Below, piece after piece: positions 2,950 to 34,955 of a stretch of 40,666 nt of DNA (position 1 is the stretch's first letter; every line of letters begins with the position of its first letter). The notes under the pieces are model-generated. The model was not told the origin of the DNA and made no database searches. It saw only the letters and a program-made list of their open reading frames with translations. The stretch is from the IMG/VR virus record IMGVR_UViG_3300020472_000061, positions 1 to 40,666 of that record; one strand, 5' to 3'. The DNA comes from a virus. The position numbers and the translations under genes are program-made.

Positions 2950-4584
2950 TCAACCTTTGTCATCCTTACCACCTAGTGGTGCAATGATATCAGGTCTTGG
3001 GTGTCTTATCATAGACACTAGAAAGCAATATGTCATGGCGTGGATCGTGTCATCCGTTGCTCCAGGCGTTTTAGTGACAACCGTTGTCCGCCTAGCCTCA
3101 TTGTATTCAGTAAAAACACTTAACAAATCCTCCGCAAAAGGGTGCTCAAAGTCTTCCCAAGCGGGGAGCTTAATTTCGTTTTTGCGATTTAGAGCGTTTA
3201 TCAAAGCCATAAGCGCTTCCGTCCTATTAACCATAAAACGGTGAAGCGCATTATCAAAGTATATCCTTCGAGTATTTACATACTGGTATCTAGCAAGCCG
3301 CTTGATGCCAAACGTTCTAATGAGCCTGTCATTGCGGTCAAAACCGCCGCCATAGTCAGCGCCTATTAATTTTATCTTATATTTATTTACCAGCTGCTCA
3401 ATGGCTGCGAGCGTGTTTTCTGGTTCAGCTTCCTCGCCTTCGAATCTCTTAAAGTACACGTATTGGAACTTATCCTTTACGTACCCGCCGATGGCCACAA
3501 CCGTGTAAGAGTTCTCGCCTGTCCCCCAGTCGATCCCCATGTACAAGTTATTCTTGGCTAGCCCCGCTGACCCGGCGAAGCTATTCCCTCCAGAAGATAG
3601 CTCCCTGAGAAGCTCCCTTGTTATGGGCTTCTGTCCAGAATCGTACCCAAGCCCAAGAACCTCGTTGTAAAACTGCGCTCTATTGTAGCGCTTTTTCTTG
3701 TCCCGTATTTCGTTCCAGTTAACCCACGGGGTGATCACCTGGGGGACGCGGTAACCCTCAAACGGGATAGCTATCGGAGGGTTTTTTAACCACTCCGGGG
3801 AGCGCATCGAAGCCCACTGGCATCTCGGATTTCGTGGGTCTATTGGCTTGCCGCACTTCTCACAAATAAGGCCAGTGTCCCCGATGTTTCTCTCGGAGAT
3901 AATGTTCCACTTGTTACAGGCCTCGCAAGGTATAACCCACTCGTTCTGGGTGGAGAACCTGCTCCAGTAGTAGCTGATCGTGTTGTCGAGACTCTTCGGC
4001 GTGCCGGAATATCGCAATATCTTGTATTGGGAGTGGGACAAGGCCTCCTCGATAACGGGGATGACCTCAGTTAGAATGTCCTGGATCTCATCCAGAAGAA
4101 GCATGTCTGCGGAGATACCACGAACACGATCAGCATGAAGGAATGCGTACCTAAGCGTAATATCGGACCCAGTTATAAACTTCTTATAAAGAACATTGTT
4201 CTTAGTGTTCTCTCCCCTGGTGAACGCCTGTACCTGCGGAGAGTACTCGACCGGTGTGGAGATTCTGTCCCTTGAGAATGTCTCTGTTTGCTGCTGAGTA
4301 GGGGACACAAAAAGGCTTCTGAAGTGCCTTTGGAGCAATGCGTAAGTTAGCGCGATATTACCCAGCGTCGTGCTCTTCTCAACCTGTCGACCACACTGCA
4401 GGAGAAGTCTTTTCGCCGGAGTATCGTAAATGGGGAGCAGATACTCCCTACCTGTAAAGTCGAACTTGTCTAAGTTCCCCTTGTTGGGCATCTTAAAGAA
4501 AGAGCCCACAAACTCTGAGGGGAACATATTGAACCCATCTGACGTGGCATCGAACTCTTCTACAGGCTTTTGAATCTTAAACAT
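2950..4584 (-). CDS. terL: Terminase large subunit (TerL), DNA-packaging ATPase/nuclease
   Basis: TerL pumps phage DNA into the procapsid through the portal and cuts concatemers. The 544-aa protein has the two-domain architecture. The ATPase domain has Walker A CGRQVEKSTT at residues 64-73 and Walker B MLLLDEIQDI with D165-E166. A zinc-ribbon-like insertion has C220, C223, C241 and C244. The RNase H-like nuclease domain has GIDWGTG (D352), IGADYGG (D410) and a C-terminal TDDTIHA acidic motif near residue 520. Length is normal for the family. The usual Gly before the Walker A Lys is Glu (E69), a variant seen in some phage terminases. The start overlaps the start of a plus-strand ORF, and no strong ribosome-binding site precedes it. 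A separate TerS is not evident; the 260-aa gene at 8863 is a weak candidate. Confidence 0.95.
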   Translation of the reverse strand: MFKIQKPVEEFDATSDGFNMFPSEFVGSFFKMPNKGNLDKFDFTGREYLLPIYDTPAKRLLLQCGRQVEKSTTLGNIALTYALLQRHFRSLFVSPTQQQTETFSRDRISTPVEYSPQVQAFTRGENTKNNVLYKKFITGSDITLRYAFLHADRVRGISADMLLLDEIQDILTEVIPVIEEALSHSQYKILRYSGTPKSLDNTISYYWSRFSTQNEWVIPCEACNKWNIISERNIGDTGLICEKCGKPIDPRNPRCQWASMRSPEWLKNPPIAIPFEGYRVPQVITPWVNWNEIRDKKKRYNRAQFYNEVLGLGYDSGQKPITRELLRELSSGGNSFAGSAGLAKNNLYMGIDWGTGENSYTVVAIGGYVKDKFQYVYFKRFEGEEAEPENTLAAIEQLVNKYKIKLIGADYGGGFDRNDRLIRTFGIKRLARYQYVNTRRIYFDNALHRFMVNRTEALMALINALNRKNEIKLPAWEDFEHPFAEDLLSVFTEYNEARRTTVVTKTPGATDDTIHAMTYCFLVSMIRHPRPDIIAPLGGKDDKG

Positions 4585-4795: not shown

Positions 4796-5009
4796 GCTCT
4801 AGCGAAATGTAGGAATCGCATAGGAAGTCTTCTCGCACAGGGGACCTGTGCGATGTGCACTCTCCGTCACCCTTAAACCCTCTGCCAGCCGCGTAGATAA
4901 AGTTAGAGCAGCTTAGGCAGTTCTCCTGAGTTTTTGACACCCTCAGGCCTGGGGGACTCGGTTGATTTAGAAGGCCGTCCAAAATTGAAAAGTCGCGAGA
5001 AGAGTCCAA
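4785..5009 (-). CDS. Small Cys/His metal-binding-like protein, 74 aa
   Basis: The product has a compact C-x2-C motif (CLSCSNF), then C-x2-H (CTSHRS), then a final Cys before an aromatic (FLCDSYISLE). This arrangement is typical of small phage zinc- or Fe-S-binding proteins of unknown role. The start is a TTG at 5009 with GGGAG seven bases upstream. It lies inside the end of the helicase gene, giving a 107-base overlap in a different frame. A GTG near 4955 would shorten the overlap and keep all cysteines. An 8-bp perfect hairpin (4834-4852) lies within the Cys/His-coding part. The function is unknown; the conserved-looking metal-site spacing is the main reason to call it real. Confidence 0.65.
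   Translation of the reverse strand: MDSSRDFSILDGLLNQPSPPGLRVSKTQENCLSCSNFIYAAGRGFKGDGECTSHRSPVREDFLCDSYISLEPNE
4834..4852. repeat. Perfect 8-bp inverted repeat with 3-nt loop
   Basis: CGCACAGG, a GGA loop and CCTGTGCG form a perfect stem within the Cys-rich gene. There is no following T-run on either strand, so it is not a standard terminator. It may be an RNA stem near the end of the helicase-coding transcript, or chance. Confidence 0.35.
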
Positions 5010-6684
5010 CCTTTTTCTCCCTTTTAGGGTACACGTACCTGACTTCTCCTGAAGAGTCAGTGTATTTATACAGATGTTTTGGTGGCTTCTTTAGTGCAGA
5101 ATAGAACTGCTTGGTAGCCGTATGTTTTCTGCCGGCCACATTATACATCCATTGGTCGGTCGTCTGTGGGGCTTTTCGTCCGATAAGCTTCCCGAAAAAC
5201 CCAGGCTTCGCACTATCTGGCACAGTGCTTTGATAACGCCGGACATCTACTTTTCTCTCTTCTGGCGCTCGATGTTCCTGGCCACCGAGCCTTCTAGCTC
5301 GACCCTCAGCCTGCAGCACTCTCTCCGGGTTGAAGTGTCCGTCTAGAGCGTAGAACGCGGTCGAGTTCTTAAGATCGAGGCCTTCAGCACCAGCCCCACT
5401 AATTATTATGACCTTCTTCTTTCCTTCTTTGTATGCCTTAACACCGTCTTGACGAGTTATGGAGGTCACTTTGCTACCCCCAACGTCTGTCCCCTTCCCA
5501 ACAAAGACCGCGTGGTCAATACCACGATCCTTCAGCCCCTGAGACAGGACATCGATGCCGCCGGTGACAAGGTTGGAGTAAAGGACAACCTTTCTATCCG
5601 CCCCGTCCGCCAGGTGCTTTTCGGTATCGTCCAGAACCTTCCTTACCTTAGGCGTCTCTTTAGCTGAGCGAGATAGAGAGAAATCTCTTCTTCCAGTGTG
5701 CATGGAGTTGGCTAGTTGTCGAGCTTGGGATATCTGCCCGAATAGCTGCTTAGCATCTCGCACAGATACGTTTGGGTCTCCGCGAACGATTCTTTCTTTT
5801 ATTGGTCCCAGCCGGTCCAGCGCCAACTGGTACAAGGTGTACTGTTTTTTTGACATCGGTACGTAGACGTTTTGGACCTCTTTCTTAGGCATGGTCTTGC
5901 CCTTCAGGTCCTTAGTCGCCACGTAGTGAACACTAGGTCCAACTTCTTTCCGGAGCCCTTCTTCGTTTTTAACCCCAATTATCTTTTTTGGTGTTTTGCC
6001 AAAACCTTTTGCAAACCCAACCGTCTCAACAAACTTACGCTTAAACTGCTTAGGGCTGTATTCCCTCTCAGCCTCAGAAATAGTCATGAGCGTGGCCATT
6101 TCAGAAGGGCTGTTGTTAATCATGGAGGCCGTCAGGCCCATGAAATTAACAGCGTGCTTTCTAGCAGCTAGAGCAGCCTTGAAAGTAGAGGATTGCTCGT
6201 TCCGTGTTTTGTGGAATTCATCGAAGATCAAAGTGTCCGAGCCCGTCCTCTTCATCAGCCCCTCGGGGTCTCTTCGGAACTGCGCGTAACTGACCACGGT
6301 ATAGACCGCATCACCTTCAGAGCCTGGGCGGACAAACCCAGGCCTCTTAGCAACCTCTGAGGCCGACCCAACAATCTGAACGGTGCTGTCGGTGAATTTT
6401 TTTACACCGTTTTCTGCAAAGTTGTTACGTAGCCCAGAAGGTACAACCACAAGAGCCTTAGTGGCTTTACCTTTATCACGGAGCTTCTCAAATCCGTATA
6501 TGCTGGTAACGGTCTTACCGGTGCCCATTTCGTGGGCCAAAATCATCTTCCCACGGTTCTTAAAAAGCTTGTCTATTGCGGCCTTTTGGTGCGGGTACGG
6601 ACTAAACCACTCCTTCATAGCAGGTATGCGCTCTTCGGAGCTTTCGCCCTGCGCAGTCTTATATAGGAAGTGGTATAAACTCAT
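4903..6684 (-). CDS. SNF2-type superfamily 2 helicase/translocase, 593 aa
   Basis: All core SF2/SNF2 motifs are present: a Q-like element (YPHQKAAID, residues 30-38), motif I EMGTGKT (52-58), Ia VVVPSGLRNNF, II DEFH (155-158), III GLTAS, V GAGAEGLDLKNS and VI QAEGRARRLG (458-467). It should translocate on double-stranded DNA using ATP and might strip proteins or remodel DNA. The chosen ATG at 6684 is one base beyond the stop of the 610-aa gene; a longer frame upstream overlaps that gene and has no family support. It sits among virion genes rather than replication genes, and its N-terminus (SLYHFLYKTAQGES) shares K-x-A-x-G-E-S with the 213-aa protein. Packaging in the particle or a role in late transcription with the phage RNAP is inference. 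Confidence 0.9.
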   Translation of the reverse strand: MSLYHFLYKTAQGESSEERIPAMKEWFSPYPHQKAAIDKLFKNRGKMILAHEMGTGKTVTSIYGFEKLRDKGKATKALVVVPSGLRNNFAENGVKKFTDSTVQIVGSASEVAKRPGFVRPGSEGDAVYTVVSYAQFRRDPEGLMKRTGSDTLIFDEFHKTRNEQSSTFKAALAARKHAVNFMGLTASMINNSPSEMATLMTISEAEREYSPKQFKRKFVETVGFAKGFGKTPKKIIGVKNEEGLRKEVGPSVHYVATKDLKGKTMPKKEVQNVYVPMSKKQYTLYQLALDRLGPIKERIVRGDPNVSVRDAKQLFGQISQARQLANSMHTGRRDFSLSRSAKETPKVRKVLDDTEKHLADGADRKVVLYSNLVTGGIDVLSQGLKDRGIDHAVFVGKGTDVGGSKVTSITRQDGVKAYKEGKKKVIIISGAGAEGLDLKNSTAFYALDGHFNPERVLQAEGRARRLGGQEHRAPEERKVDVRRYQSTVPDSAKPGFFGKLIGRKAPQTTDQWMYNVAGRKHTATKQFYSALKKPPKHLYKYTDSSGEVRYVYPKREKKVGLFSRLFNFGRPSKSTESPRPEGVKNSGELPKLL

Positions 6685-6685
6685 T

Positions 6686-8518
6686 CTAGTTCTTAATGTT
6701 GTATAGGCTACCTGCGGCAAGCCCAGCAGCCGCAGGCATAGCCGCGACATCAGCAAATTGTGTTCTATCTGGCATAAGGGCTCTTTTCACTCCGCGCTCA
6801 ACAGCGCCGCCAGCGCGTCTACCAGACTTGGCAACACCCGCTCTAGCCAGAGCCCCTGTAAGCTTACCAAAGCCTCGTGCCTCTGGAGAGACGACAAGGT
6901 CAGTTAGGTGCTGCTTAAACCTGTTCCCAGGAGCATGCCCCCACCTAGGCATTAAGGCCTCTCTAATACCTTGGGCAGCTTCCCCCGATGCCATATTTTC
7001 AATTGCCTTAGTTCTTGCGGCCAGTCCCTTAATGCCGCTCCACGTTCCATGAGCGCCCAAAGCAGCCCCAACAGGGCCACCTAACGCCATGCCCCCGCCT
7101 ATGGCCCCCGTAAGGGTCAACCAGTCCGGTATTGCGGACCTAGAAAGCATCCTTCCTGCTGGGGCGTCACTAAATCCAGCCCTGGGTAGGCCGCTTACGG
7201 GGAGGGTGAACCCGCCAACGTTTTGGTCTACAGCCCCGCGTCCCGATAACATCATCTTCTCCCATGCCTTTTTAAAGGTGGGGAAGTGTTTGCTTTTGCC
7301 GTAAAGAGCCTTATGACCCAGCGCCATGTCGACTCCCTCTGGGATGGAGGAGAGTACCGGAATAGGCTCACCTTCCCGCGAGTACCGTAGCTCTGGAGTT
7401 TCTTTTACTTTCCGCTGTATCCACTTAAGGGCGTCCGGTCGCTTGCTCTCAGGAACCCCTCTCAACATCTTTCCTATTTTCATGCCCATTTGTCTCTGAA
7501 GGCGTAGCTCAGGGATGGACATGTTTAGTGCGATGGTGGATCTAAGGCCCTCGCTTGTGCGGCCGGCTATACCTTCCCTAATTCCGATAGCAAGTTGCCT
7601 AGCTTGCGCCTTCTGGGCGCGACGAACGACACCGCGAGTAAGAGGCATATTCGCCATTCTCCCGCCGGCCTTACCGTATCCTAGAGCGCCTTTTGTCACA
7701 GCGTGGATGCCTACCACATCGGCCAGCCCCTTTAGAAGCGTGCCGCCAACCATGCCGGCAGTTATAGGATCAGCGGCCAGCTTCTCTATCTCATAGGAGG
7801 CTTCTTTCTTCATCAGCTTCATAGCTCCATCAACCGCTCCGGCCAGAACAAGGCCACCTAAAGCACCCCCTGCGCCGCCCCCTGCGGCTGCGGCGGCTAT
7901 AGCTCTAGATCCAGCACGTCCGCCCGGCTTAAGCACTGCGGCTTCAGCGCCGCGAGAAAGAGCGCCAACAGCAGCCCCGGAAAGCGCAGGCAGCATAAGT
8001 TTCTTAATCGTAGAGGGCGATTTACCTTTGGAGGAGGACCTCCCCTTGGCAACGCTTAGCCCAAGAAACACTGCTGCAGGAACCTTATAAGAGACGCGAA
8101 CCCCACCAAGCTGTAGCCCGCTTAGAATCGACTTAGCCTTGGAATTGCTCAGGCTCCTCGCAGATGCGTACCCCTCAGAGAACCCCTTTTTCCCAGCGTA
8201 GACCCCGCCAGTTGCGGCTATAAGGGCTAGGCCCTTGTTTCTATCGGACTTGGAAGAGGATCCAGCGAGAGAAAGGCCTTTTAAGAAAATAGGCGCAGTA
8301 GCTATACCAAGGCCGGCCCCAAGCGCACGTCCAAGACCCCTTCCTTTGAAACCTGTTTTTAGCTCCTTAGTAAAGGAGGTCTTTGGTTTGAATACTTTTT
8401 CCTGAACTGCGTGTTCAATGGCTCCTTTGGGAAGGTCTCCCAAGAGGGCCTTAGCGCCGAATACCGGCGCAGCCAAAGCCACTTGTTTAATATAGGACTT
8501 ATTCTCTTTATTACTCAT
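6686..8518 (-). CDS. Large glycine-zipper virion-module protein, 610 aa
   Basis: The ATG at 8518 overlaps the TGA of the upstream gene (ATGA). The first 250 residues contain at least five Gly/Ala/Leu-rich hydrophobic segments (for example LGRALGAGLGIATAPIFLKG, MLPALSGAAVGALSRGAEAA, GGGAGGALGGLVLAGAVDGA) with dense GxxxG spacing. A marker-like KKEASYEIEKLAADP follows near residue 240. The C-terminal part is basic and Gly-rich (residues 270-600), with a further hydrophobic segment IGGGMALGGPVGAALGAHG. No signal peptide or enzyme motif is visible. The composition would suit an ejection or membrane-penetrating protein delivered with DNA. It is too short and unlike a classic coiled-coil tape measure. 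I do not recognise the family. Confidence 0.82.
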   Translation of the reverse strand: MSNKENKSYIKQVALAAPVFGAKALLGDLPKGAIEHAVQEKVFKPKTSFTKELKTGFKGRGLGRALGAGLGIATAPIFLKGLSLAGSSSKSDRNKGLALIAATGGVYAGKKGFSEGYASARSLSNSKAKSILSGLQLGGVRVSYKVPAAVFLGLSVAKGRSSSKGKSPSTIKKLMLPALSGAAVGALSRGAEAAVLKPGGRAGSRAIAAAAAGGGAGGALGGLVLAGAVDGAMKLMKKEASYEIEKLAADPITAGMVGGTLLKGLADVVGIHAVTKGALGYGKAGGRMANMPLTRGVVRRAQKAQARQLAIGIREGIAGRTSEGLRSTIALNMSIPELRLQRQMGMKIGKMLRGVPESKRPDALKWIQRKVKETPELRYSREGEPIPVLSSIPEGVDMALGHKALYGKSKHFPTFKKAWEKMMLSGRGAVDQNVGGFTLPVSGLPRAGFSDAPAGRMLSRSAIPDWLTLTGAIGGGMALGGPVGAALGAHGTWSGIKGLAARTKAIENMASGEAAQGIREALMPRWGHAPGNRFKQHLTDLVVSPEARGFGKLTGALARAGVAKSGRRAGGAVERGVKRALMPDRTQFADVAAMPAAAGLAAGSLYNIKN

Positions 8519-11631: not shown

Positions 11632-12087
11632 CTATATCCAAGTTTGGGGTGTGGCCGGAGCCGGCAAAATCCCAGTGCCTGTTTTTATCCATATGTCGAG
11701 CGTAGCAAAAAGTGCCTTAGCGGCAGGCGTAGGGCTGTCCTGTCCGCCCAAAGCCGCTATCGCAGAAAAATCCGGCGGGGCCGGAGGGGGTGTGTAGGAG
11801 AGCGCGGGCGGGATCGGCGCTGTCGCCAAGCCCGTCTTTGCGTAATCCCACCAAGCCAGCTTGAAACTGGCCTCTGTTATAGACTTGCCCGCAGCGCCCT
11901 TAAATGCGGCCTCGCCGACGGTGTAGTCAAGCCACTTAGGGCTGGCCCCACTACTAAAAAATGCGGTCGCAACTTTAGCCCAAAGCTCACCCATGTGGGG
12001 ATCTGCTGCAGGTTCCATCGACTGTAATTGCGAATCCATCTGGCTGACCGCAGCAACTACAGAACTTTCGGCGGAAGAAAAAGGCAT
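11632..12087 (-). CDS. Tail-module protein, 151 aa, unknown
   Basis: The ATG at 12087 overlaps the stop of the hub-like gene (TAATG) and has GGTGGA just upstream. The product is Ala/Pro-rich. A helical N-terminal half (AVSQMDSQLQSMEPAADPHM; FKLAWWDYAKTGLA) is followed by a proline linker (PPALSYTPPPAPPDFSAI). A C-terminal element (AKALFATLDIWIKTGTGILP) resembles the end of small proteins that sit next to baseplate or spike genes in other phages. Direct coupling to the 502-aa hub-like protein suggests the two products act together in the tail tip. No family name can be given. Confidence 0.78.
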   Translation of the reverse strand: MPFSSAESSVVAAVSQMDSQLQSMEPAADPHMGELWAKVATAFFSSGASPKWLDYTVGEAAFKGAAGKSITEASFKLAWWDYAKTGLATAPIPPALSYTPPPAPPDFSAIAALGGQDSPTPAAKALFATLDIWIKTGTGILPAPATPQTWI

Positions 12088-13595
12088 TATTCCACCAAAA
12101 CCTTTGATGATTTAGCATCATCTATCGGGTCAATTGCCGTGCAAGGAGCGACGGCCCCTGGAGGAGTTGGCCCCCAGGCTGTCTTTAGAACGAGGTCGTT
12201 GTTTATAAAGTTCTGCAAATTATTAAGGCACTCTTTTAGTTCTTCGAATTTGACGCCATGTGAGCTTGGGTCTACCCCAAGCTCTATCCCATCAGCGGCC
12301 GTGGCATTTATCATAAATTTCTTTCCATCAAATACGAAGTCATTAATAACTTTTACAACCATCTGCTCCAAATAAACCTTGAAGTCGCCAGACTTAGTAA
12401 GCTCTAGTAGAGCTTGTTTACTAGAAGATCCGGAGAGTTGCTCACTTAGCTCGTCCCCGTATTCTATCTTAACGCCCTGAGCGACGTTTGCATAGACGGT
12501 CCTGTCAAGCTCTACATGTATATGCCCTTTTGAATGAAGGAAGTGGTCTCCGTCCTTATTAATCTGAAAAGCGTAGGTCACCTTTTCTTTGCTACCCGGC
12601 CCACCCTCAGCATCGTCATGAGGCCATATGGTAAAACTTAAAACACCACGAGAAGAACGGGTGTCCCAAACCGGGTCGTCCGCCTCTTCGTAACCATCCT
12701 TTAAACCAGGGAACTGTCTAAGCCCAACATCGCTAGACGTGGCCTCGTTAATTGTGCGGATGTTCCCGAAGATATGCTCATTATCTATCTCTGTATCAAG
12801 GGCCTCCTCTGTAAGACGCCCCATCCGAACCTCAACGGTGTAATTTCGGTGCCCAGAAGACCCGGCCGGACTAGATGCTTCTGTTTTACCCGCAACAACC
12901 TCCTGCACCATATCCTTAATACTGTACCGGACAATCACAGGTGTCTCTGTAGAGTTCGGGCCGCTAGCCGCTTCTACAACACCCCCTAAGGTGGTTTTTT
13001 CAGAAAGGTCACTCTCAGCAACAAGCTGCGCATGCCCCCACTCGATCTCCCCCACAGGGGAAAAGGCTTGGTACTTTTGGAAGTAATCCCTGACAACATT
13101 TTCTATGGGTAGGTAAAACCTTTGTGCTAGCGGCGTTGCTCCAATTTGAACCATTCCGCCTCTCCTAAGGCACACCTTGTTTCCATCTTGCGTGCCGAGG
13201 AAAACATCGCCAGGCTCTAAGAACTCACGCTCTCCCCGGAAATCTGGTCCCTTGTCAGCCGTAGTGGACTCTTGGACCTTGCCGTCAACTTTTTCGAATT
13301 GAGGGGTGTTTCTTGGGTCGGTGACGAAACCCAAAACAAATTGAGTCTTGTCAGCGCAGACACACACGTAACACATACTGCCCTCTTCGGGCATTATGGA
13401 TACACCGCCAGGATGACTTCTGTTTTGGTACGGCGTGGCGAATGGGATATCACTATAGGTCCTTTGCGTAAAAATTCCGATAGCGTCCAGTGTGAACTCT
13501 CTTGGATTTACGTAAACAACTCTAGCCAGCGCCACGCTCGCTGGGCCTGAGGCTCCTGTCGCGTCGGTAGAATTTCCTGAACTATCCTTAGCCAT
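12087..13595 (-). CDS. Tail hub/spike-like protein with gp5/gpV-type OB fold, 502 aa
   Basis: Near the N-terminus the sequence PGGVSIMPEEGSMCYVCVC, then VLGFVTD, has the beta-barrel pattern of the OB domain in T4 gp5/lambda gpV-like hub proteins. It is followed by FLEPGDVFLGTQDGNKVCLR and GGMVQIGA, typical of the segment leading into a spike. The C-terminal 130 residues are beta-rich (YAFQINKDGDHFLHSKGHIH; VHVELD-like repeats), as expected for a trimeric spike stem. No lysozyme insertion is seen. It would form or plug the tail tip and touch the host envelope. Start ATG overlaps the RNAP stop codon (TAATG) with GGGGG upstream, so RNAP and hub are made from one message. The tail type cannot be decided from this gene. 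Confidence 0.7.
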   Translation of the reverse strand: MAKDSSGNSTDATGASGPASVALARVVYVNPREFTLDAIGIFTQRTYSDIPFATPYQNRSHPGGVSIMPEEGSMCYVCVCADKTQFVLGFVTDPRNTPQFEKVDGKVQESTTADKGPDFRGEREFLEPGDVFLGTQDGNKVCLRRGGMVQIGATPLAQRFYLPIENVVRDYFQKYQAFSPVGEIEWGHAQLVAESDLSEKTTLGGVVEAASGPNSTETPVIVRYSIKDMVQEVVAGKTEASSPAGSSGHRNYTVEVRMGRLTEEALDTEIDNEHIFGNIRTINEATSSDVGLRQFPGLKDGYEEADDPVWDTRSSRGVLSFTIWPHDDAEGGPGSKEKVTYAFQINKDGDHFLHSKGHIHVELDRTVYANVAQGVKIEYGDELSEQLSGSSSKQALLELTKSGDFKVYLEQMVVKVINDFVFDGKKFMINATAADGIELGVDPSSHGVKFEELKECLNNLQNFINNDLVLKTAWGPTPPGAVAPCTAIDPIDDAKSSKVLVE

Positions 13596-16500
13596 TAATA
13601 CGTACCCCCTTCTCGGCCCTTACCAAACTCGGCGGAGTACGTAATCCCTGGGCTTGGGTGTAGCCCGTGTATGTCCGACTCCCACCCCTCATTGGCGGCG
13701 CGGATAAGTGTCTCCTTAAGCTTCCTGTATTGCATTCGCGCTAACCAGTCCGTGGTCTGGTCTAGCGGAAGCGTTTCCACGCCACGGAGCACGGGCTCAA
13801 CAAGAACCCCACTGCCTCCGGTATTGTTCCTGTTCAGGTGAGCAACGTGTGAGCTAGAGACAAGGTCATTTTTAACGAAGTCCGAATCTCCGGGGTCTAT
13901 AACCCTCGACAAGTTCGTAAGTGACTTCGTGACCACCTCAACGTTTCTACGCTTGATTCCCTCGCTCTTGTACGCACCGTGTATCTCGTCAGACAGATAC
14001 CGCTGTACAGTGTCTACATTGGTCAGCCCTAAAAGCTCCCTAGGGTTTATGGGTCCGCCCGTTAATCTTTGTCCTTTACGAACCTTAGCCCCTTTTTTCA
14101 CTTTTACTGAGCGGTCCCCAGGAACATACACCTGCTCCTCCCCAACCAAGACATCGTGCCCACCAATATCGCTTTTCTTAACAGCTTTGATAGTTCCCGT
14201 CACAGGACTCAAAACAGCGGACCCCGCAACAATTTCGGGCATTTTCAAAAGCTGTATGACTCGGTCAATTCCACCTACCAGGTTTCCCGACGCCCCTGCA
14301 ACACCTCCGGTGTGGAAGGATTTCATGGCCAGCTGGGTGCCGCGTTCTCCCAAAGAAGTACCAGCTATAAGGCCAATATTGGTCCCTTTTTCTATAAGGT
14401 TTCCTCCATTATATAGACCATAGCACTTGGAACAGAGGCCTTTTGAGGATTGGCACTTTAGTGGGGAGCGTACAAGAAGCTTAGATACTTTAGAGGACTT
14501 TAGGCTGGATAATAGGCTCGGAGTAACCTCAGTGTTTTTAGGAACAACCATGCCCCCTATAGACAATTTCTTAGCCGTGAATCGGTCTACGATATCAGCG
14601 TCGGTAGTGTCTAAAGCAATTCCGCGATCTGTTTTGCAGTCATCTTCGGTAATTAAGTAAGTTATTGCTGTGTTAGCTATTTGCTTATTCAGGGCTCCTG
14701 GCTTTTGAACAGATTGTACCTTTTCTATAAGACCTTTTCTTGCGCCCGAAGACGCTACCCAGTAACCAGACGTGTCTAGACCCTCAGAGTAAGACCGGGT
14801 TACGGGGACAGGAATAACCCTTCCTTTGGCGTTCTCCAATAACATCGGAGCGATAACCATTTGCTGTAGCTGCGACCATGAGGGCTTCACGCCCGCGTTA
14901 TTCATGGCTGCGAGCTTATTACCCCTTTTATTCAGGAGTGCCTTGGCTTCCTTGTTTATGTCTTCGGTCGCCTGCATGTATATTTTTATTATTTTTGCTT
15001 CGGCAGCTTCCGCAGAAAGCAAGTTCATCTCAACCTGCTTTTTTGTCGTTGACTCTTGCTTGCGCGCCTTAACCAAATGCTTTTCCCGTAACTTGCCGAG
15101 AGTCTTAAAGTCATCCAGGCTAAAAGAAAAGCCAATAGCGTATGAGTGGCCAAATCCAAGATCTTTAAGCTTGTCCACAGTTGTGGAGAATGCTCCAGGA
15201 GCCTTTGTTGCGACATCCCTTAAAACCCCCTGGAGCACTTTACTGCTCATGACCGCCTTAGGGTCTGTGAGAATCTTGTCGGTTCTAGCCGCCTTAGGCA
15301 GGGCCGCATGGAAAGTCGCCCTACCCAGAGTCGTCTTTTTCCCATCGATGGTCACAACGTCGGTCAAAGCAAGACTTCCGTCCTTCGCGGCAACACGAGC
15401 CTCAGAAAGGTCCTTGTAGGACTTATTTGTTTTCTTCCCCATCTGAGTGAGGAGGAACAACCCCATCTGTCCTTCAAGGGTGGGCTGGTACATAACCTTG
15501 CCGGTAGCAGGGTTAAACAAGTTCTTTGACGGCAACATTTTGTACGCCTCGTCAACCGCCTCTTGCGATACGGGGACGAATACCGCCATCGTATCTCCGT
15601 CAAAGTCCGCATTAAACCCTCCCGTCACAAGCGGGTGAATCTGGACGGAGGACTCGCCATGTAGTTTGGCCTTGAAGGCCATTATTCCGAATTTATGGAG
15701 AACAGGATCGCGCTTAAAAAGAACAGGCCGCTTAGACACAGCGATATCCAACGCCTTGTTAGCAAGGGAGGAATTTTTTTCAACCTCCTCCCGGGCAGAC
15801 AGCGGAGTATACCCCATGGCCACAAGCTCCTTAACAACGAAAGGACGAAAGATTTTCATGGCCCCTTTTCTAGGAAGCCCAAGCTCGTCCAGGTGAAGCT
15901 CCATGTTGGGGACAATGACGGAGCGCATTGCTAGGTCCTGCCTACGGTCCAGTAGCCTCTGGTGGAAAAAGCTCTGCTTCGGGGAGGTCCTTCCTGACAG
16001 GATTGCCAATATGCCTGGTGGCTTTGCTTGCCCGTCTATGGTTAAAGCCCCTTGATTTTGGCCGGGAGCTGTCCCCATTAAGGCGTCAATAGCGTCGTAC
16101 AAATCACCTCTTAGCGCTGCGACCTCTTCGTCCGGAAGAACACCGGAGGCCTCTTTGAGCTTGTTGTTCAATATGGCTATGTCTCTATATAAGAGGTTAA
16201 GCCCATCAACATTTAAGTCCCCACCCTCCATTGCGGTGATTGGCCTAAACAGCGGGGGGAGGATAGGCACGTTGCTAATCAGGTACGCCTCCTCGGCTGA
16301 CATTGAGTTTTTATCCAACATACGCAGGTATTTTATTTTCTTATTCGCCGCATCTAGCTTGGACTTTCTCGCAGTTTTTATATCCTCTTCTGCAGCGGCT
16401 AACTGCTGAGCCACATTGATCTTGGAAATCGCTTGGGCTATGGCCGCAGGGCCTTTTAACGAGGCCTCCTCGTCATAACCATTTTCGGATAAGCCTGCCT

Positions 16501-19500
16501 CACCGCTAATAATCTTGTCGTACTGGGCACCAGTGATGCCCAATAGGGATCGTACAGATTTCTCAAACACCGGATTTGGTAGCTTCTCGGGGAGAGTTAG
16601 ATGTGACCAGCTCTTGCCGCCAGGACCGCCCGTAATTTCTTCATCGAACAGGCCGTCTTTTTCAGGCTTCAAGTCTTTGCCTCTAATTACGCGACTTCCG
16701 TTTTTAATCTCACCATTGGACATAGACAGTATTTGCTTGTCGGTAAGAGGCTGAACTACAAGCCCATTCCCCTCCTTCTCTACGTTCACGCCTATTGCAG
16801 CAAGATACGCAAGAAATTTTTCATACGCAAAAGAGGGCTTTGGTGTAGGCAGCATCTGACCTGTCTGCACAGCTGTCCAAACCTCGTCTTGGGACTTATC
16901 CCCTTTGTACGTAAGGGCGTCTCGGATATTAGCTGTCGCGCCATGCGCGAGCATCGCGTAGAGGCCAAGCTCCCCAAATCTTTGTCCTCCGGACCCTCCA
17001 CCGCTCTTAGGTATCATGTTCGCGCTGTAATCGTACCCGTACCCGTGTGCCCGCGCCGATAGCTTCTTGTCCACCTGGTGCGTCATCTTGAGTATGTATT
17101 GCTGGCCAACCAAAACCTTGCCTAAGCTCTTCCCGCTAACAGGATCAAAAAGCTCTTCCGTCTCGTCAACGCCAGCATCTTTTAATGCACTCTTAACTAC
17201 TTCTTGGTAACCAAGCTCACGCTCATGCTCTTTTACAAGAATCCGTTTGGGCCCGCTTTTTGTTTTTATAGTTCGGTAATGTTCCTTAACCTTAACAACC
17301 TTCTTCTCGTCATCTGATTGAAAGTTTTCAACCGCGTACGGCTCTCCGGTTTCCGCAGCGGCTTTAGCTAAGGATGTCTCCAGAACCTGCCCGAGGTTTA
17401 TTCGCCCAGGAACGCCGGAAGGGTTGAATATAATCTCTAGGGGAACGCCTTCGCTGTTCTTAGGCATCTCTTCGTTAGGAACGACTGCGGTTATAACCCC
17501 TTTGTTCCCATGCCGACCGGTAAGCTTATCTCCGATGTCCGCGGGCTCCTCCGTCTTAACAAAGACCGTGACCTCTCTACCATTGCGCACAACGTCAGTC
17601 ACCACGCCCGAGTAAGGCTTTTCCCACGACACAGACCTGTCTTTATACGGTCTGGCCAGCGAGCGGTGGATACCTTTCAAAAGAATTTGCTCTTTGGAAG
17701 GTTCGGACTTCTGTAAAGCTGCTATTAGGACGTCGCCGGGGGAAACTTTCTGCCCCTTCTTTATTACGCCGTCCTCATCCATTTTAGCGGCGTTCTCTTC
17801 AGAGACCGCGCCAGGATAGTTTGCTCTAAACTTTTTTAGGCCTAGCGCCATGTTTTTTTCTACGTATACGCGTGGCTTGTGCAAGTGCTCGCTTGTAAGC
17901 CGCTCCGCTGCAGCCTCAGAGATCACAATCCCGTCCTCAAACACAAGCCCCTTATAGGGCACGTATCCAACACGCAAATTGGTGCCTAACGACAAAGTCC
18001 CATTTCTTGTAAAATTTGTGTCCGCAATAGTCTGACCGGCCTTTACAGCAGCCCCCTTTGTCACAATCGGAGTGCTCTGCATAAACGATTTCTTCTCATT
18101 AAGAGGGAAGCTTTCGTACAGAGCGATCTCGTGCTTTTTGCCTGCGCTGTCGGACACAACGATCTTAGACGGTCCAACGCTAGACACGATACCGCTCACA
18201 GGGCTTGTGTGTGCCGAAAGCCCGCCCATAACCTTTTCCCACGTAGAGAACCTTTTTTCCGGGTTCCCAGACACAACTTGTACGAGAGGCTCTTCCCGGT
18301 ACTTCAGAGAAATAGCCTGCTCCATGTGCCGGGTTGCCATCCCTGCGCGATTTGCTTGATCCGAGGGAAGAAAAGGGACAAGGTTCGCAGTCATAGAAAA
18401 AAGCTGCTTGGGAGACTGTAGAACGTAATCGACTTTGTTGGCGGCTATGTCTCTCGGATCTCCCCCGTCCTGATCCACAACTGTTACGCTCTTTGTCTTG
18501 GGGTGTGGTCGCCCGTCTGGGCCAAAAATATACTGGTCCGGGAACGCTACAGCCTTTCCGGACAAGTCCGCTGGGCTCCGGTTCTCGTACTTCCCTGAGG
18601 CCGTGGAAAATACGCGGATTGTTGGATTGTTCCCAATCTTAGACACACCCAGCGATAGGTGCCCACTAATACCAGACCTTTTCCCTTCAGGGGTGTGAAT
18701 AGGGTCCAAAAAACCCAAGTGACTTGAATCAATAAGCTTAGCGTCGTCAGATATAGCAAGGTCGCTACTAATTCCGCCCGTACCCAGAATAGTAGTTCTG
18801 AGGAATCCACCTACCATATCTATTGGGTTTGTTTGGTTGGGTTGTTGAGATAGTGAGGTTGAGGTGAAATAAGCTTTCACAGGGACATTAAAAATGTCCG
18901 GGGTCACAATGCTCTTTACAGAGTCTTTTCTGTCCAGATTATTCTTTATCTTAAACTCAATTCTTTTCGAGGAATTAAGAATTCTTTCTGGAAGATGGTC
19001 CTCTATAGACCATAACTCTTTGAACCTTAAAGAGTCTCGGTTGTCTGGCTCGCGATCTCCTTTATTTATAGCTAATAAACGATCAGACGCAGCAAGGAGG
19101 GTCCCCCCCTCAACCTTGCTAAAGGGTGCGCCCAGCGTAATTTCGGTCGTGTCTTTTCGCAGCTCAGTTTGTTTTAGCTTATCAAGTATAACGGGAGTAG
19201 CCTCTACGTCTGTCTTCCCCTCAAATCTGCGATCAAGCGATTTAGCAAGCTTGACCAGCTCCCCTCGCTTTTTGTCAGAGACACTTTTGGCGTAAAGACT
19301 CTCGCCCCACACCGATCTAATCTCTTCGTCAGAAACCCCCATTGCCTGGAGAACCGGGAGAAGCTGGATGTTAGTGGTTCCGTAGTTAAGCATAAAACGC
19401 TTCTTCTCTGGGGAAAAAGCCATTCTAAACCCTCGACCTTTAGAGAGGTTAAATTGCGCCTCCAGGCCGCCGTTCGCTTTAACACGGGAATACACTCCAG

Positions 19501-19855
19501 ACTTAAGTCTCCACTGATTGTCTGACTGATATTCAGTACCATCGACAATATAGCTAAATCTTCGGGTTATCTTGGGGAGCCCGATAAGCTTCAGCTTTTT
19601 GACCGAGTCCACAACTGTTCCTGTCTCTTTATCTACTAGGGAGAAATCGGCGTATATGGGAACTGACCAGGTTCTTCCGCGCAGCCTCGCCTTCTTCTGA
19701 CTGGCGATATCGTCCACGTCCACGCCTTTTCCGGCGTATACCTTAGTGGCAACAAGTTTTTTAGTTCTCCCCTCCATCGGGAAAAACTTTTCTACCTGCT
19801 CTATGGTCCTTTCTTCGAGAGCTTTCATCGCCCTCTCGGGATCAAGAATTGACAT
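13595..19855 (-). CDS. rpoBC: Single-chain fused RNA polymerase beta-beta' (2,086 aa)
   Basis: DNA-dependent RNA polymerase with both large bacterial subunits in one frame. Beta (about residues 1-1028) shows a rif-region SLSQQPNQTNP (334-344), FEDGIVISE, GRHGNKG (780-786), SGVPGRINLGQVLE and GGQRFGELGLYAML. Beta' follows almost without a linker (from about 1030): LPPLFRP clamp region, NADFDGD catalytic Asp triad (1415-1421), bridge helix SSGARKGL, zinc site 2 (C1740, C1801, C1808, C1811), and trigger loop SLGERGTQLAMKSFHTGG with H1848. The beta' N-terminal zinc domain is missing (after DGLF, 1067-1070). The beta flap is cut to a short hairpin (about 750-775). There is no SI3-type trigger-loop insertion. 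Total length is roughly 660 aa below E. coli beta plus beta'. Start ATG has GGAGG five bases upstream. No alpha, omega or sigma gene is visible in the window. Confidence 0.97.
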   Translation of the reverse strand: MSILDPERAMKALEERTIEQVEKFFPMEGRTKKLVATKVYAGKGVDVDDIASQKKARLRGRTWSVPIYADFSLVDKETGTVVDSVKKLKLIGLPKITRRFSYIVDGTEYQSDNQWRLKSGVYSRVKANGGLEAQFNLSKGRGFRMAFSPEKKRFMLNYGTTNIQLLPVLQAMGVSDEEIRSVWGESLYAKSVSDKKRGELVKLAKSLDRRFEGKTDVEATPVILDKLKQTELRKDTTEITLGAPFSKVEGGTLLAASDRLLAINKGDREPDNRDSLRFKELWSIEDHLPERILNSSKRIEFKIKNNLDRKDSVKSIVTPDIFNVPVKAYFTSTSLSQQPNQTNPIDMVGGFLRTTILGTGGISSDLAISDDAKLIDSSHLGFLDPIHTPEGKRSGISGHLSLGVSKIGNNPTIRVFSTASGKYENRSPADLSGKAVAFPDQYIFGPDGRPHPKTKSVTVVDQDGGDPRDIAANKVDYVLQSPKQLFSMTANLVPFLPSDQANRAGMATRHMEQAISLKYREEPLVQVVSGNPEKRFSTWEKVMGGLSAHTSPVSGIVSSVGPSKIVVSDSAGKKHEIALYESFPLNEKKSFMQSTPIVTKGAAVKAGQTIADTNFTRNGTLSLGTNLRVGYVPYKGLVFEDGIVISEAAAERLTSEHLHKPRVYVEKNMALGLKKFRANYPGAVSEENAAKMDEDGVIKKGQKVSPGDVLIAALQKSEPSKEQILLKGIHRSLARPYKDRSVSWEKPYSGVVTDVVRNGREVTVFVKTEEPADIGDKLTGRHGNKGVITAVVPNEEMPKNSEGVPLEIIFNPSGVPGRINLGQVLETSLAKAAAETGEPYAVENFQSDDEKKVVKVKEHYRTIKTKSGPKRILVKEHERELGYQEVVKSALKDAGVDETEELFDPVSGKSLGKVLVGQQYILKMTHQVDKKLSARAHGYGYDYSANMIPKSGGGSGGQRFGELGLYAMLAHGATANIRDALTYKGDKSQDEVWTAVQTGQMLPTPKPSFAYEKFLAYLAAIGVNVEKEGNGLVVQPLTDKQILSMSNGEIKNGSRVIRGKDLKPEKDGLFDEEITGGPGGKSWSHLTLPEKLPNPVFEKSVRSLLGITGAQYDKIISGEAGLSENGYDEEASLKGPAAIAQAISKINVAQQLAAAEEDIKTARKSKLDAANKKIKYLRMLDKNSMSAEEAYLISNVPILPPLFRPITAMEGGDLNVDGLNLLYRDIAILNNKLKEASGVLPDEEVAALRGDLYDAIDALMGTAPGQNQGALTIDGQAKPPGILAILSGRTSPKQSFFHQRLLDRRQDLAMRSVIVPNMELHLDELGLPRKGAMKIFRPFVVKELVAMGYTPLSAREEVEKNSSLANKALDIAVSKRPVLFKRDPVLHKFGIMAFKAKLHGESSVQIHPLVTGGFNADFDGDTMAVFVPVSQEAVDEAYKMLPSKNLFNPATGKVMYQPTLEGQMGLFLLTQMGKKTNKSYKDLSEARVAAKDGSLALTDVVTIDGKKTTLGRATFHAALPKAARTDKILTDPKAVMSSKVLQGVLRDVATKAPGAFSTTVDKLKDLGFGHSYAIGFSFSLDDFKTLGKLREKHLVKARKQESTTKKQVEMNLLSAEAAEAKIIKIYMQATEDINKEAKALLNKRGNKLAAMNNAGVKPSWSQLQQMVIAPMLLENAKGRVIPVPVTRSYSEGLDTSGYWVASSGARKGLIEKVQSVQKPGALNKQIANTAITYLITEDDCKTDRGIALDTTDADIVDRFTAKKLSIGGMVVPKNTEVTPSLLSSLKSSKVSKLLVRSPLKCQSSKGLCSKCYGLYNGGNLIEKGTNIGLIAGTSLGERGTQLAMKSFHTGGVAGASGNLVGGIDRVIQLLKMPEIVAGSAVLSPVTGTIKAVKKSDIGGHDVLVGEEQVYVPGDRSVKVKKGAKVRKGQRLTGGPINPRELLGLTNVDTVQRYLSDEIHGAYKSEGIKRRNVEVVTKSLTNLSRVIDPGDSDFVKNDLVSSSHVAHLNRNNTGGSGVLVEPVLRGVETLPLDQTTDWLARMQYRKLKETLIRAANEGWESDIHGLHPSPGITYSAEFGKGREGGTY

Positions 19856-20064: not shown

Positions 20065-20282
20065 TAGCAAAACCTAAAAAAATTGTTTGCCACGCCAAAG
20101 GCGGAGGATGCTCAGAGTATACAAACTGTGGGAACTGCGAGTTCTTTTTGAACAAGTACGATTCTGCTGCCTGGGTTTGCACTAACTGTATAAGAGATTC
20201 CGATAACATTGAGATGTTCTACCATAGCGGCAATTGTGACCGCTGTGGTTTTCGGTCTGCCGTGTTAGTGCCCATAGTCTAG
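20061..20282 (+). CDS. Small protein with eight cysteines (double zinc ribbon), 73 aa
   Basis: GTG start at 20061 overlaps the stop of the 40-aa gene. Cysteines at residues 10, 17, 23, 26, 40, 43, 59 and 62 include three C-x2-C knuckles (CGNC, CTNC, CDRC), enough to bind two zinc ions. The N-terminus is basic (IAKPKKIVCHAK). Phage proteins of this type often bind nucleic acid or host proteins, but the role here is unknown. The stop codon overlaps the portal stop on the opposite strand, so the two genes are convergent. Being the only well-supported plus-strand insert in the virion operon and next to the RNAP gene, it is a candidate early regulator. That is inference. Confidence 0.72.
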   Translation: MIAKPKKIVCHAKGGGCSEYTNCGNCEFFLNKYDSAAWVCTNCIRDSDNIEMFYHSGNCDRCGFRSAVLVPIV

Positions 20283-22252
20283 CCCTGCGCTATGCCTGTG
20301 CCCGCCTGTGGCGGGCCGGCCATTGGTTGCGGGGGTTGCATAGACCCAGCGAGTGTGTTGTTTACAACAGTATATAGGTCCGGGTGGCTGGTGCGTAACT
20401 GCGCCAGCGCCCGGTACCTGTCTACCTCATTCATTGCTTTTAGCTGCATGCTGATCTGCCGCGCCTGCGCGAATAGATCAACCATATTACCGCCCTGGTC
20501 CGCAGAAACCGGACTAGTTTCTATGCCCCCTGGCTGGGTCTCCTGTTGTGGCTGCTGCGCCATCTCCTGCTGATCAACGTCTCCCTCGGCGGGTTGCCCA
20601 GGAGGTTGCGGACCTTGTTCGCCTTGTGGACCTTGTTCGCCTTGCTGGCCTTGAGGTGGTCCCTGGGATGGCGGAGGAGGCTGCTGGGCTTGTTGCGGCT
20701 GAGGCATCTGTTGTTGCGCCTCCGCCTGCATCATTTGTGCCTGAACTTGGTAGCGGGTCTGGACCAGCATGGCTTCGCCCTGAGCTTCCGCTGCTTGCAG
20801 TTGTTGCTCTCTCTGAGTCTGCGCAAACTTCTTGGTCTCTTTCTCTATGAGAGAGGACTCTGTCTCAAAGCTAAAGTTCCGTGACTGTAAGAACGATCTA
20901 CGACTTATCATACCCGCATTAGCAAGGTTTAAGTCAAACGAGGCCCTTTGAATATCGTCGGCCATCTTGAAGGGTTTAAACTTAACAGGAATGCTCGGTA
21001 TATCCAAAAACGCGCATACCCGATCCCGGACAAACTCAACAAGTCTTAGCATGTCCTGACGGTTTCCCAGAAACTCGTTTTCTAGAGCACGCAAGTTAAC
21101 AGAGGCCCCAGAATACTGAGCCTCTCCGTAGAAGAACCCGGTAGGTACGCCCATCCCGGCAATTATCTGGTCGTTATATATACGAATTTCTTGGTGAAGG
21201 AGGAGCGATCTACCCTGCCCACCGATCATTTGGTAACCAACAGGGACGGGCATGACGGGAATATGGTTGTTATCTTGCCGCCATTTTTTTATCTGCGTAG
21301 TTACTTCGCCCTGCCAGTCCTTTAGGTTTATGTGCGCGTAAGGGTTGCTGCCGTCTGTTGTCACCTGCGGAAACATAACCCGCATTGGCACAATGTGCTC
21401 AAGGGCTACGGCTTCTTGCGACTTTCGTAATACCTGAAGGAAGAATATATCCTTTAATACAGGTAATATCAGGGGCGCTCCCCACCCGCTATCTGACGGG
21501 TCTCTAGAGATAGAGGCGCGTTTTGAATGAAAAATTTTATCCTCATCCAGCATGATAGATTTTTTCTTCGCCAGCGCATCTATGAACGCTTGCGGAATAG
21601 TCTCAATTACGCTCGGCTTGCCAAGAGTAATATCGTTCCTTATGTGCCTGGGCATCGAGTAGTAGTACTCAGTATTGCCGGTTATCTCGTTGTGCTTTAT
21701 TGTTATATTCTTCGGATTCCACCGAATAAGCTTTATTTTTTTGTGTGCTTTTACTGGCTCGTCGCGAACTTCAGCAGCTCCGTAATGCCCACAGCCTGTA
21801 CAATTAAGAAAGAACTTAAACCCCTTCCATTTGTACCCTGACTTACTAGCCTCATAGTCAGACTTACAGCTTTTACAGATAAGAATCTTCTTAAACGGAA
21901 AGGAGACAGACACAAAAGAATTGCCATACGTGTACCTGTCTAGATTAATTTCGATCAGAAAAGTCCTTAAAAGGAACTGTTTTTCAAACAGGTCCTTATA
22001 AAGGCTAACGACTCCGTCGTTGTCGTCCTCGTAGACGATATCAGTAATAGGGTACGTGGCTAACTTTTGCGTAACCGAGTTTATAAGTGGATTTGTTAGC
22101 TGGTAGTACAGGCACCAGTCGAAGGTGTCTTTAATTGTTTTCGGCAGGTAGTTCTGCGCTATATCAAAAAAGGGGCTCGGGTAAAAAGTCTCTGGGCGGC
22201 CAACGCTCTTGGCTCTCCTAGACTTGGCTGATGAAAGTACTGAGTTTGCCAT
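20279..22252 (-). CDS. Portal protein with zinc-ribbon insertion and Gln/Pro tail, 657 aa
   Basis: The portal forms the dodecameric channel for DNA entry and tail attachment. Support comes from size, position, and motifs typical of large-phage portals: the N-terminal YYQLTNPLINSVTQKLATYP region and the central GMGVPTGFFYGEAQYSGASV followed by LENEFLGNRQDMLRLVEFV, a clip/stem-like helix. A ribbon with C126, C129, C151 and C154 (C-x2-C-x21-C-x2-C) interrupts the wing region. The C-terminal 150 residues are Gln/Pro/Gly-rich, including a short collagen-like G-x-y run encoded by an 18-bp tandem repeat. Start ATG has AGGAA eight bases upstream. The stop overlaps that of the plus-strand zinc gene. 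Confidence 0.85.
   Translation of the reverse strand: MANSVLSSAKSRRAKSVGRPETFYPSPFFDIAQNYLPKTIKDTFDWCLYYQLTNPLINSVTQKLATYPITDIVYEDDNDGVVSLYKDLFEKQFLLRTFLIEINLDRYTYGNSFVSVSFPFKKILICKSCKSDYEASKSGYKWKGFKFFLNCTGCGHYGAAEVRDEPVKAHKKIKLIRWNPKNITIKHNEITGNTEYYYSMPRHIRNDITLGKPSVIETIPQAFIDALAKKKSIMLDEDKIFHSKRASISRDPSDSGWGAPLILPVLKDIFFLQVLRKSQEAVALEHIVPMRVMFPQVTTDGSNPYAHINLKDWQGEVTTQIKKWRQDNNHIPVMPVPVGYQMIGGQGRSLLLHQEIRIYNDQIIAGMGVPTGFFYGEAQYSGASVNLRALENEFLGNRQDMLRLVEFVRDRVCAFLDIPSIPVKFKPFKMADDIQRASFDLNLANAGMISRRSFLQSRNFSFETESSLIEKETKKFAQTQREQQLQAAEAQGEAMLVQTRYQVQAQMMQAEAQQQMPQPQQAQQPPPPSQGPPQGQQGEQGPQGEQGPQPPGQPAEGDVDQQEMAQQPQQETQPGGIETSPVSADQGGNMVDLFAQARQISMQLKAMNEVDRYRALAQLRTSHPDLYTVVNNTLAGSMQPPQPMAGPPQAGTGIAQG
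20611..20646. repeat. 18-bp tandem repeat, two copies, in portal C-terminus
   Basis: GACCTTGTTCGCCTTGTG is followed directly by a copy differing only in its last two bases. On the minus strand each unit encodes six residues of the G-E-Q-G-P-Q type. Slippage at such a repeat would change tail length in steps of six residues without a frameshift. Confidence 0.75.
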
Positions 22253-27588: not shown

Positions 27589-27905
27589 TGGCTAAAATAT
27601 CTGAATGCCCGATAGATGAGATAAGGCTTACAAACCTGGTTATAGACCACCACGCTAATGCAAAAGTCGTGGACCAAAACAGGTACATGTTCGCAGTGGC
27701 GCAGTTTGCCTACTACATGGACGGTGACCCTGTCGGTGAATTTACAATAAACGGTCTGACGGAGGATCTCGGGGAAGAACTCAATTCCCTAATCGACGCC
27801 ATCGAAGAGACAGTTGCGAAAAGAATGGGCTTCTCTGGTCAAAGTGAAGAACCTCGGCAAGTGCCTAAGGGAATCATAGACCACGGCGGACCAGAGGAGT
27901 TTTAA
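27588..27905 (+). CDS. Early-module protein, 105 aa, unknown
   Basis: ATG overlaps the upstream stop and has GAGGGGG upstream. The product is small, soluble and acidic. A beta-like middle (YMFAVAQFAYYMDGDPVGEF) is followed by an acidic helix (LTEDLGEELNSLIDAIEETV) and a short tail. It is coupled to the replicative helicase gene (TAATG). A helicase-loading or replisome-accessory role would suit the position directly upstream of dnaB, but the sequence does not show it. Confidence 0.78.
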   Translation: MAKISECPIDEIRLTNLVIDHHANAKVVDQNRYMFAVAQFAYYMDGDPVGEFTINGLTEDLGEELNSLIDAIEETVAKRMGFSGQSEEPRQVPKGIIDHGGPEEF

Positions 27906-31453: not shown

Positions 31454-31501
31454 CTAACGGGGAACCTCGTAAAGAGCAAGAGGCTCTGATGGGGGGATCT
31501 T

Positions 31502-31557: not shown

Positions 31558-31571
31558 AAGGAGAAACAACA

Positions 31572-34944: not shown

Positions 34945-34955
34945 TTCACTTACAA

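Follow-up and report, generated by a model that had tools for sequence, protein, structure and literature searches.

A single-chain beta-beta' RNA polymerase core in a lineage of large tailed phages and its co-occurring sigma family

Introduction

Two kinds dominate what is known of bacterial-type RNA polymerases (RNAPs) in phages: sigma-less enzymes of many pieces (phiKZ, AR9) and single chains of extreme divergence. Enzymes of the phiKZ/AR9 type consist of at least five (virion RNAP) or four (non-virion RNAP) polypeptides, with two enzymes per phage and no recognisable sigma (PMC7598289), and the RNAPs of crAss-like phages, YonO and P23-45 are reported to be highly divergent from cellular RNAP (PMC7481178, PMC10770324). 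Here we analyze an RNAP gene in the virus record IMGVR_UViG_3300020472_000061 of IMG/VR, positions 1 to 40,666; this whole stretch of 40,666 nucleotides is called the window. A preliminary description, made from the letters alone, had proposed that one of its frames holds an entire beta-beta' core. The enzyme described here departs from these by a combination of features: it is a nearly complete core of the bacterial type on a single chain, it has a dedicated sigma and no recognisable alpha or omega, and in natural relatives it is cut into two or three pieces.

Results

One open reading frame holds a beta-beta' core

The gene is a single open frame of 2,086 codons without internal stops; its ATG is preceded by a GGAGG ribosome-binding site, and it ends in TAATG, the stop/start overlap with the next gene that had been noticed before. 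Pfam domains follow each other in the order Rpb2 2, 3, 6, 7 and Rpb1 1, 2, 4, 5, with E-values of 2.5e-60 for Rpb2_6, 2e-26 for Rpb1_2 and 2.7e-18 for Rpb1_5, the matches to Rpb2_7 and Rpb1_4 scoring below their own Pfam cut-offs. A phmmer search matched bacterial beta' chains at about 1e-115. AlphaFold models of residues 1-1126 (mean predicted local distance difference test, pLDDT, 72; predicted template modelling score, pTM, 0.59) and 1028-2086 (mean pLDDT 79, pTM 0.56) were of moderate overall confidence; in Foldseek they matched solved bacterial beta chains (E about 1e-67) and beta' chains (E about 1e-68, TM score up to 0.77), respectively. The frame, the domain order and the phmmer match confirm, at the level of sequence, a complete multisubunit-type (two-barrel) beta plus beta' core and hence a predicted enzyme, as the preliminary description had claimed. 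The parts of the gene are:

13595..19855, minus strand: single-chain RNAP core, beta fused to beta', 2,086 amino acids (Pfam, phmmer, 98% identical open reading frame in contig L003)
16775..19855, minus strand: beta part, residues 1-1027 (Pfam Rpb2_2/3/6/7; Foldseek of the model)
16751..16777, minus strand: beta/beta' junction, residues 1027-1035 (alignment; predicted beta hairpin 1024-1028/1031-1035, low confidence)
13598..16750, minus strand: beta' part, residues 1036-2086 (Pfam Rpb1_1/2/4/5; Foldseek of the model)

The junction, expected at about residues 1025-1035, was located at about 1027-1035, where the beta C-terminus FLAYLAAIGVNVE joins the beta' N-terminus PLTDKQILSMSNGEIK over nine residues; AlphaFold models it as a hairpin with low confidence.

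Alignment placed the catalytic elements and the surfaces for sigma as follows:

17501..17527, minus strand: beta catalytic lysines K777 and K785, GDKLTGRHGNKG
15593..15613, minus strand: catalytic motif NADFDGD, residues 1415-1421
14642..14749, minus strand: bridge helix, residues 1703-1738
14291..14356, minus strand: trigger loop with His1848, where relative L213 carries a probable intein
17663..17695, minus strand: flap-tip helix, residues 721-731
16070..16201, minus strand: beta' clamp helices, residues 1219-1262
18782..18853, minus strand: rifampicin-pocket region, residues 335-358

D1417, D1419, D1421, K777 and K785 do not vary in 45 phage and 29 bacterial alignment rows, and the window RNAP keeps both the bridge-helix arginine and the trigger-loop histidine. 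The flap tip and the clamp helices, which we take to be the docking sites for sigma regions 4 and 2, respectively, in bacteria, are both kept in the phage lineage. In the rifampicin pocket, we take G350, T355 and N340 to be the equivalents of E. coli H526, S531 and D516. Because the H526 and S531 contacts are altered in nearly all members of the lineage, mostly to G/S/N and T, the phage RNAP is predicted to resist rifampicin.

The two zinc sites of beta' had different fates:

16607..16627, minus strand: site of the absent beta' N-terminal zinc-binding domain (alignment)
14423..14638, minus strand: second zinc site, C1740/C1801/C1808/C1811, kept (alignment)

The N-terminal zinc domain is cleanly absent from every lineage member examined, which have 5 residues and no Cys at this site (lengths for 23 added class-A rows, the one-chain relatives defined below, come from an alignment that drops insertions); bacteria and the split-RNAP phages Carin-5 and GN1 have 37 residues with 4 Cys there. 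At the second site, one class-A row seemingly lacks all four cysteines.

A genuine phage gene outside the sampled bacteria

A separate contig, L003, carries the RNAP at 98% identity (210 differences in 6,261 bases) in the same frame and with the same neighbours. A profile scan found 78 further viral contigs, in 72 of which the enzyme is one unbroken open reading frame of about 2,020-2,490 amino acids; in the other six it is truncated by contig ends. In the lone broken copy, L009, the stop results from one of four substitutions that separate it from L010 inside a stretch of 41 bases, so that the break is probably a sequencing error. A frameshift or an assembly join, against which the preliminary description had advised checking, is thus ruled out by the L003 copy and the 72 other single frames.

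We built a first tree under the LG+C20 model with 17 bacteria from many phyla, cyanobacteria and archaea not being among them. The phage RNAPs form one clade opposite these bacteria (support 100/100), and the window RNAP falls inside no sampled bacterial clade. Within the phage clade, support was 96/96 for the one-chain group (window, L010, L047), 100/100 for the two- and three-chain RNAPs together, 99/97 for the three-chain and 86/84 for the two-chain group. Larger quick trees, with up to 29 bacteria including a fused Helicobacter, agree with it.

Fused rpoBC genes of the Helicobacter or Wolbachia kind are real, that of Helicobacter anseris (L057) being one 2,901-amino-acid frame, and the window gene could in principle be such bacterial DNA, as contamination or in an assembly chimera. 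However, it is flanked by portal, terminase and phage replication genes in an order repeated in many contigs, it lies outside all sampled bacteria, that Helicobacter included, and it lacks the beta' zinc domain. Bacterial contamination is ruled out by the gene context and the tree, and we give an artefact of either kind practically no credence. Separately, OR844998, OR846602 and similar unverified Staphylococcus, Enterococcus and Listeria 'phage' records have RNAP matches that look like host bacterial DNA.

One, two and three chains

We divided the relatives into class A, the window group with a one-chain RNAP, and classes B/C, with an RNAP split into two or three chains. The nearest cultured relatives, Vibrio phages D69, D181 and D148 and Salmonella phage Arash, bring in the two-chain form, represented by Arash and D69: beta and the first third of beta' make one chain of about 1,525 amino acids, with a second gene for the remainder of beta'. 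In Arash, the two chains are gp206, annotated only as beta, and gp216 (606 amino acids). The pieces of the three-chain group are about 1,140, 390 and 614 amino acids long. The natural breaks map to two places in the window RNAP, and the border between beta and beta' is never broken:

16451..16492, minus strand: homologous position of the first break in three-chain relatives, residues 1122-1135 (alignment)
15263..15373, minus strand: homologous position of the break in two- and three-chain relatives, residues 1495-1531 (alignment)

The three architectures fit the tree without additional changes. Beyond the preliminary description, the fusion proved common to the whole lineage, while the cultured cousins carry a split version. 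Because every relative shares the fusion and none is broken there, it would already have been present in the lineage's common ancestor, and a single fusion of beta to beta' in that ancestor, with two cuts thereafter, is the simplest history. The lineage is large and mostly undescribed.

Some relatives carry HNH genes or probable inteins within or between their RNAP genes. In Vibrio phage D181 (L146 6501-7428), an HNH/NUMOD homing endonuclease gene lies within the beta part, as a group I intron or a free-standing insertion could place it; the RNAP gene is whole in the sister phage D69. L025 has an HNH gene between the middle and last RNAP pieces. Two contigs from the profile scan have in-frame inserts, L213 one of about 407 amino acids at the trigger-loop histidine itself (window residue 1848) and L234 one of about 355 at the beta catalytic lysine region (window residue 778). 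Each insert starts with Cys, and its last residues are His-Asn or Gly-Asn, with Thr or Ser coming next; with such ends and active-site positions, as expected of inteins, they are probable inteins. Mobile introns have been proposed as the origin of split phage RNAP genes (PMC7598289), and the endonucleases at the D181 and L025 RNAP breaks agree with that proposal. The occurrence of homing endonucleases at certain breaks, together with that of probable inteins at active sites, suggests a mechanism by which the chains were split.

Alternatively, the phage ancestor could have had a split RNAP whose pieces were fused again late, giving the one-chain state. The tree is compatible with this, as the split classes form the sister group of class A and an unrooted count of changes is blind to gain versus loss. 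Against it, beta' is normally contiguous in cells, the active site has diverged least in class A (NADxDGD in 24/26 class A vs 0/19 class B/C), and the breaks coincide with homing endonucleases in some members; we regard re-fusion as unlikely. An equation of the phage break with the cyanobacterial gamma/beta' break was unsupported: residue 553 of the 624 of gamma aligns to window residue 1499, which places the cyanobacterial break about 40-70 residues further on.

Cobetia phage Carin-5 (L006) and Yersinia phage GN1 (L143) represent a different phage RNAP lineage, in which beta' is encoded ahead of beta. This lineage keeps the zinc domain and has an NLDYDGD motif and a T4-type gp23 capsid; in Carin-5, a sigma gene adjoins the RNAP.

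No recognisable alpha or omega, and a lineage sigma family

From the lack of alpha, omega and sigma genes in 40 kb, the preliminary description had suggested a minimal, possibly alpha-independent polymerase. The lack is true of the window, and it means little because the window is a fragment of a larger genome: the record is linear and collinear with 83.8-117.5 kb of the 182.7-kb contig behind L010, whose sigma genes are located outside this segment. We therefore rely on long relatives. Alpha (PF01193) was not found above the curated cut-off in any of 30 records searched (29 long relatives and the window; one sub-threshold match), nor was omega (PF01192) in any of 14 (13 relatives and the window; one sub-threshold match). 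In this respect the idea of a minimal enzyme stands. All 13 relatives have one RNAP set per genome, seen as a single PF00562 locus each.

The part of the idea that dispensed with sigma falls. Generic models detected sigma in most class B/C genomes and few of class A, Sigma70_r2 matching in 4 of 18 long class-A records. With a lineage-specific search, seeded with a three-sequence alignment of Arash gp10 and class-A sigmas (E<=0.01), a gp10-type sigma family appeared in 26 of 28 long records, comprising 16/18 of class A and 10/10 of class B/C, which rules out a sigma-less lineage. The sigma matches in G002, G012, G020 and G027 contain one in-frame stop each in six-frame translation, which may reflect alignment past the gene end, errors or recoding. 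A second type, gp196 (Arash, L005 10522-11559), lies near the RNAP in class B/C, upstream of the portal-RNAP pair. As class B/C combines a single RNAP set with two types of sigma, we infer an exchange of sigma factors on one core.

The phage core might instead join host alpha, omega and/or a host sigma in a hybrid holoenzyme, as neither alpha nor omega was found and the sigma docking surfaces are kept. This reading has to face the phages' own sigma family in 26 of 28 relatives and the phiKZ-type enzymes, which work without alpha and omega (PMC7598289); we consider it quite improbable.

The Arash homologue is the most detected protein of purified virions

Packaging of the RNAP, raised in the preliminary description, is plausible in view of its Arash homologue, which heads the list of proteins detected in purified virions. 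In Arash virion mass spectrometry, gp206 gave 3,516 spectra, more than any other protein, followed among the proteins of interest here by gp216 (1,210), helicase gp217 (1,148) and sigma gp10 (467), and sigma gp196 is missing from the list (PMC10585845). Dividing by length ourselves, we obtained 2.3 spectra per residue for gp206, 2.0 for gp216, 2.0 for gp10 and 2.4 for gp217, a near-equal set between the portal (1.5) and the major capsid protein (4.3).

These values bear on a competing explanation, in which the polymerase is a non-virion enzyme made together with the structural genes to transcribe late genes and reached the Arash particles only as carry-over, being abundant in the cytoplasm. 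The position of the gene in the structural cluster, with the TAATG overlap, would suit such an enzyme, as would the gp196-type sigma that lies near the RNAP in class B/C and is off the virion list; moreover, that list contains obvious non-virion enzymes, and its authors raise this alternative (PMC10585845). On the other hand, no Arash protein has more spectra than gp206; per residue, the spectra of the two RNAP chains, one sigma and the helicase are similar, with the second sigma missing; and there is only one RNAP per genome. Weighing these, we think a purely non-virion role unlikely, though it deserves appreciable weight. Since non-virion enzymes are listed and carry-over has been raised, packaging is likely for Arash, and for the window phage we would extend it by analogy.

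Neighbouring genes

The RNAP gene lies inside the structural-gene cluster, as described before, so that expression with structural proteins is expected. Its flanks had been read as portal and tail-hub genes. The portal holds, by homology to the Arash and D69 portal genes (about 31% over 460 amino acids); the tail-hub identity lacks Pfam support and has only a weak PHROG match (E=0.0056), and our guess for this gene is a baseplate-, spike- or hub-like role. The neighbours are:

20279..22252, minus strand: portal protein gene, 657 amino acids, upstream neighbour of the RNAP (31% identical to Arash gp204 portal)
12087..13595, minus strand: downstream gene, 502 amino acids, its start overlapping the RNAP stop (TAATG)
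4903..6756, minus strand: SNF2-family helicase, homologue of Arash gp217 (homology; gp217 detected in Arash virions)
2950..4584, minus strand: terminase large subunit (profile matches)

The portal lies at most 4.5 kb upstream of the RNAP in 42 of 58 class-A contigs, and the 502-amino-acid gene is kept downstream in 52 of 57. An 84-amino-acid open reading frame between portal and RNAP was rejected as a conserved partner: it has no L010 equivalent and is absent upstream in other class-A contigs. It is unrelated to the gene of about 95 amino acids at the same place in class B/C, where a gene of about 87-97 amino acids fills the portal-RNAP gap (L005, L004, L015, L021, L025, L045) and overlaps the RNAP start in several, with no class A counterpart. 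On the plus strand, window 27905-40665 holds a replication module collinear with the L010 genome, with genes for a DnaB-like helicase, a primase, a family A DNA polymerase, a UvsX-like recombinase, Holliday junction resolvases and a Cas4-like nuclease.

Discussion

We lean towards a sigma-programmed, alpha-less, single-chain core that is packed in the virion with a gp10-type sigma and starts early transcription. The core would assemble without alpha and omega and would take its promoter specificity from phage sigma factors. Produced alongside the head and tail proteins, it would be packed with the dedicated gp10-family sigma and probably the SNF2-type helicase, enter the cell with the DNA and transcribe early genes; later genes would be transcribed by newly made copies of the same core under other sigma factors. 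Cuts of beta' at one or two loops, aided by homing endonucleases, may have come later, in the Arash/D69 branch and in the three-chain branch.

Several points weigh against this scheme. Activity is not demonstrable from sequence alone, hidden Markov models can overlook a very divergent alpha or omega, and two long class-A records (G022, G025) have no gp10-type sigma at E<=0.01. The tree has long branches and includes neither cyanobacteria nor archaea. There is no cultured class-A phage, and packaging is transferred from a cousin of about 31% identity with a two-chain enzyme; moreover, the 116 proteins of the Arash list include a DNA ligase and a ribonucleotide reductase, and the Arash authors name carry-over as an alternative (PMC10585845).

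Three questions become testable with this enzyme: whether alpha is dispensable once beta and beta' are covalently joined, whether an injected virion enzyme initiates in a sigma-dependent way, and whether homing endonucleases split essential polymerase genes. With Arash as a cultured cousin, the main claims are already accessible to experiment. A sigma-programmed polymerase of 2,086 residues from a single gene could also serve as a tool enzyme.

Comparison with known systems

In the literature searchable here, none of the beta-beta' fusion, the zinc-domain loss, the one/two/three-chain series or the sigma partner is described for these phages. The isolates Arash, D69, D148 and D181 (181-188 kb) share with the window a fusion of beta to the N-terminal part of beta', the missing zinc domain, the upstream portal and a common clade; Arash shares the SNF2 helicase as well, and both Arash and D69 have the gp10-type sigma. 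Their type differs from the window in having two chains (about 1,525 and 606 amino acids) with the break after the catalytic loop, AADYDGD where the window has NADFDGD, and about 31% identity, and the chains are annotated only as 'beta' or 'hypothetical'.

The contigs of mReC, the multi-subunit-RNAP-encoding Caudovirales, resemble class A in an RNAP clade apart from bacteria, the NADxDGD motif and a length of at least 800 amino acids (Weinheimer & Aylward 2020, PMC7481178), and class A may be among the 97 published. The mReC paper describes neither a beta-beta' fusion, a sigma nor a missing alpha, and a capsid gene was detected in only 8 of its 97 contigs (PMC7481178). The mReC capsid family PF07068 matched none of the 30 records searched, and the positive controls (Carin-5, GN1 and two RHph phages) all matched. 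A viral 'beta and beta prime' RNAP gene close to the mReC clade was described in a study of a hydrothermal mat (PMC10159854) and may be an earlier sighting of this enzyme.

The fused rpoBC of Helicobacter and Wolbachia likewise has beta and beta' in one frame, but it belongs to the bacterial lineage, keeps the zinc domain and is longer; the bacterial and phage fusions are independent. The crAss-like, YonO and P23-45 RNAPs are, like that of the window, single-chain two-barrel phage polymerases, some of them in virions; going by the descriptions of the crAss and YonO enzymes, the window is set apart by eight recognised Pfam beta/beta' families.

Like the phiKZ/AR9-type enzymes, the window RNAP is a phage-encoded core of the bacterial type without alpha or omega, and one version of theirs is in virions. 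The window lineage differs from the phiKZ-like phages in one chain, one enzyme per genome (in 13 relatives, the window being a fragment) and a sigma in 26 of 28 records. Tentatively, and with some doubt, we suggest that a widespread lineage of tailed phages of about 150-200 kb injects one sigma-programmed, alpha-less RNAP, single-chain in the window's branch, and may run its transcription programme by sigma exchange, the virion sigma first and newly made ones later, rather than by separate virion and non-virion polymerases as in phiKZ.

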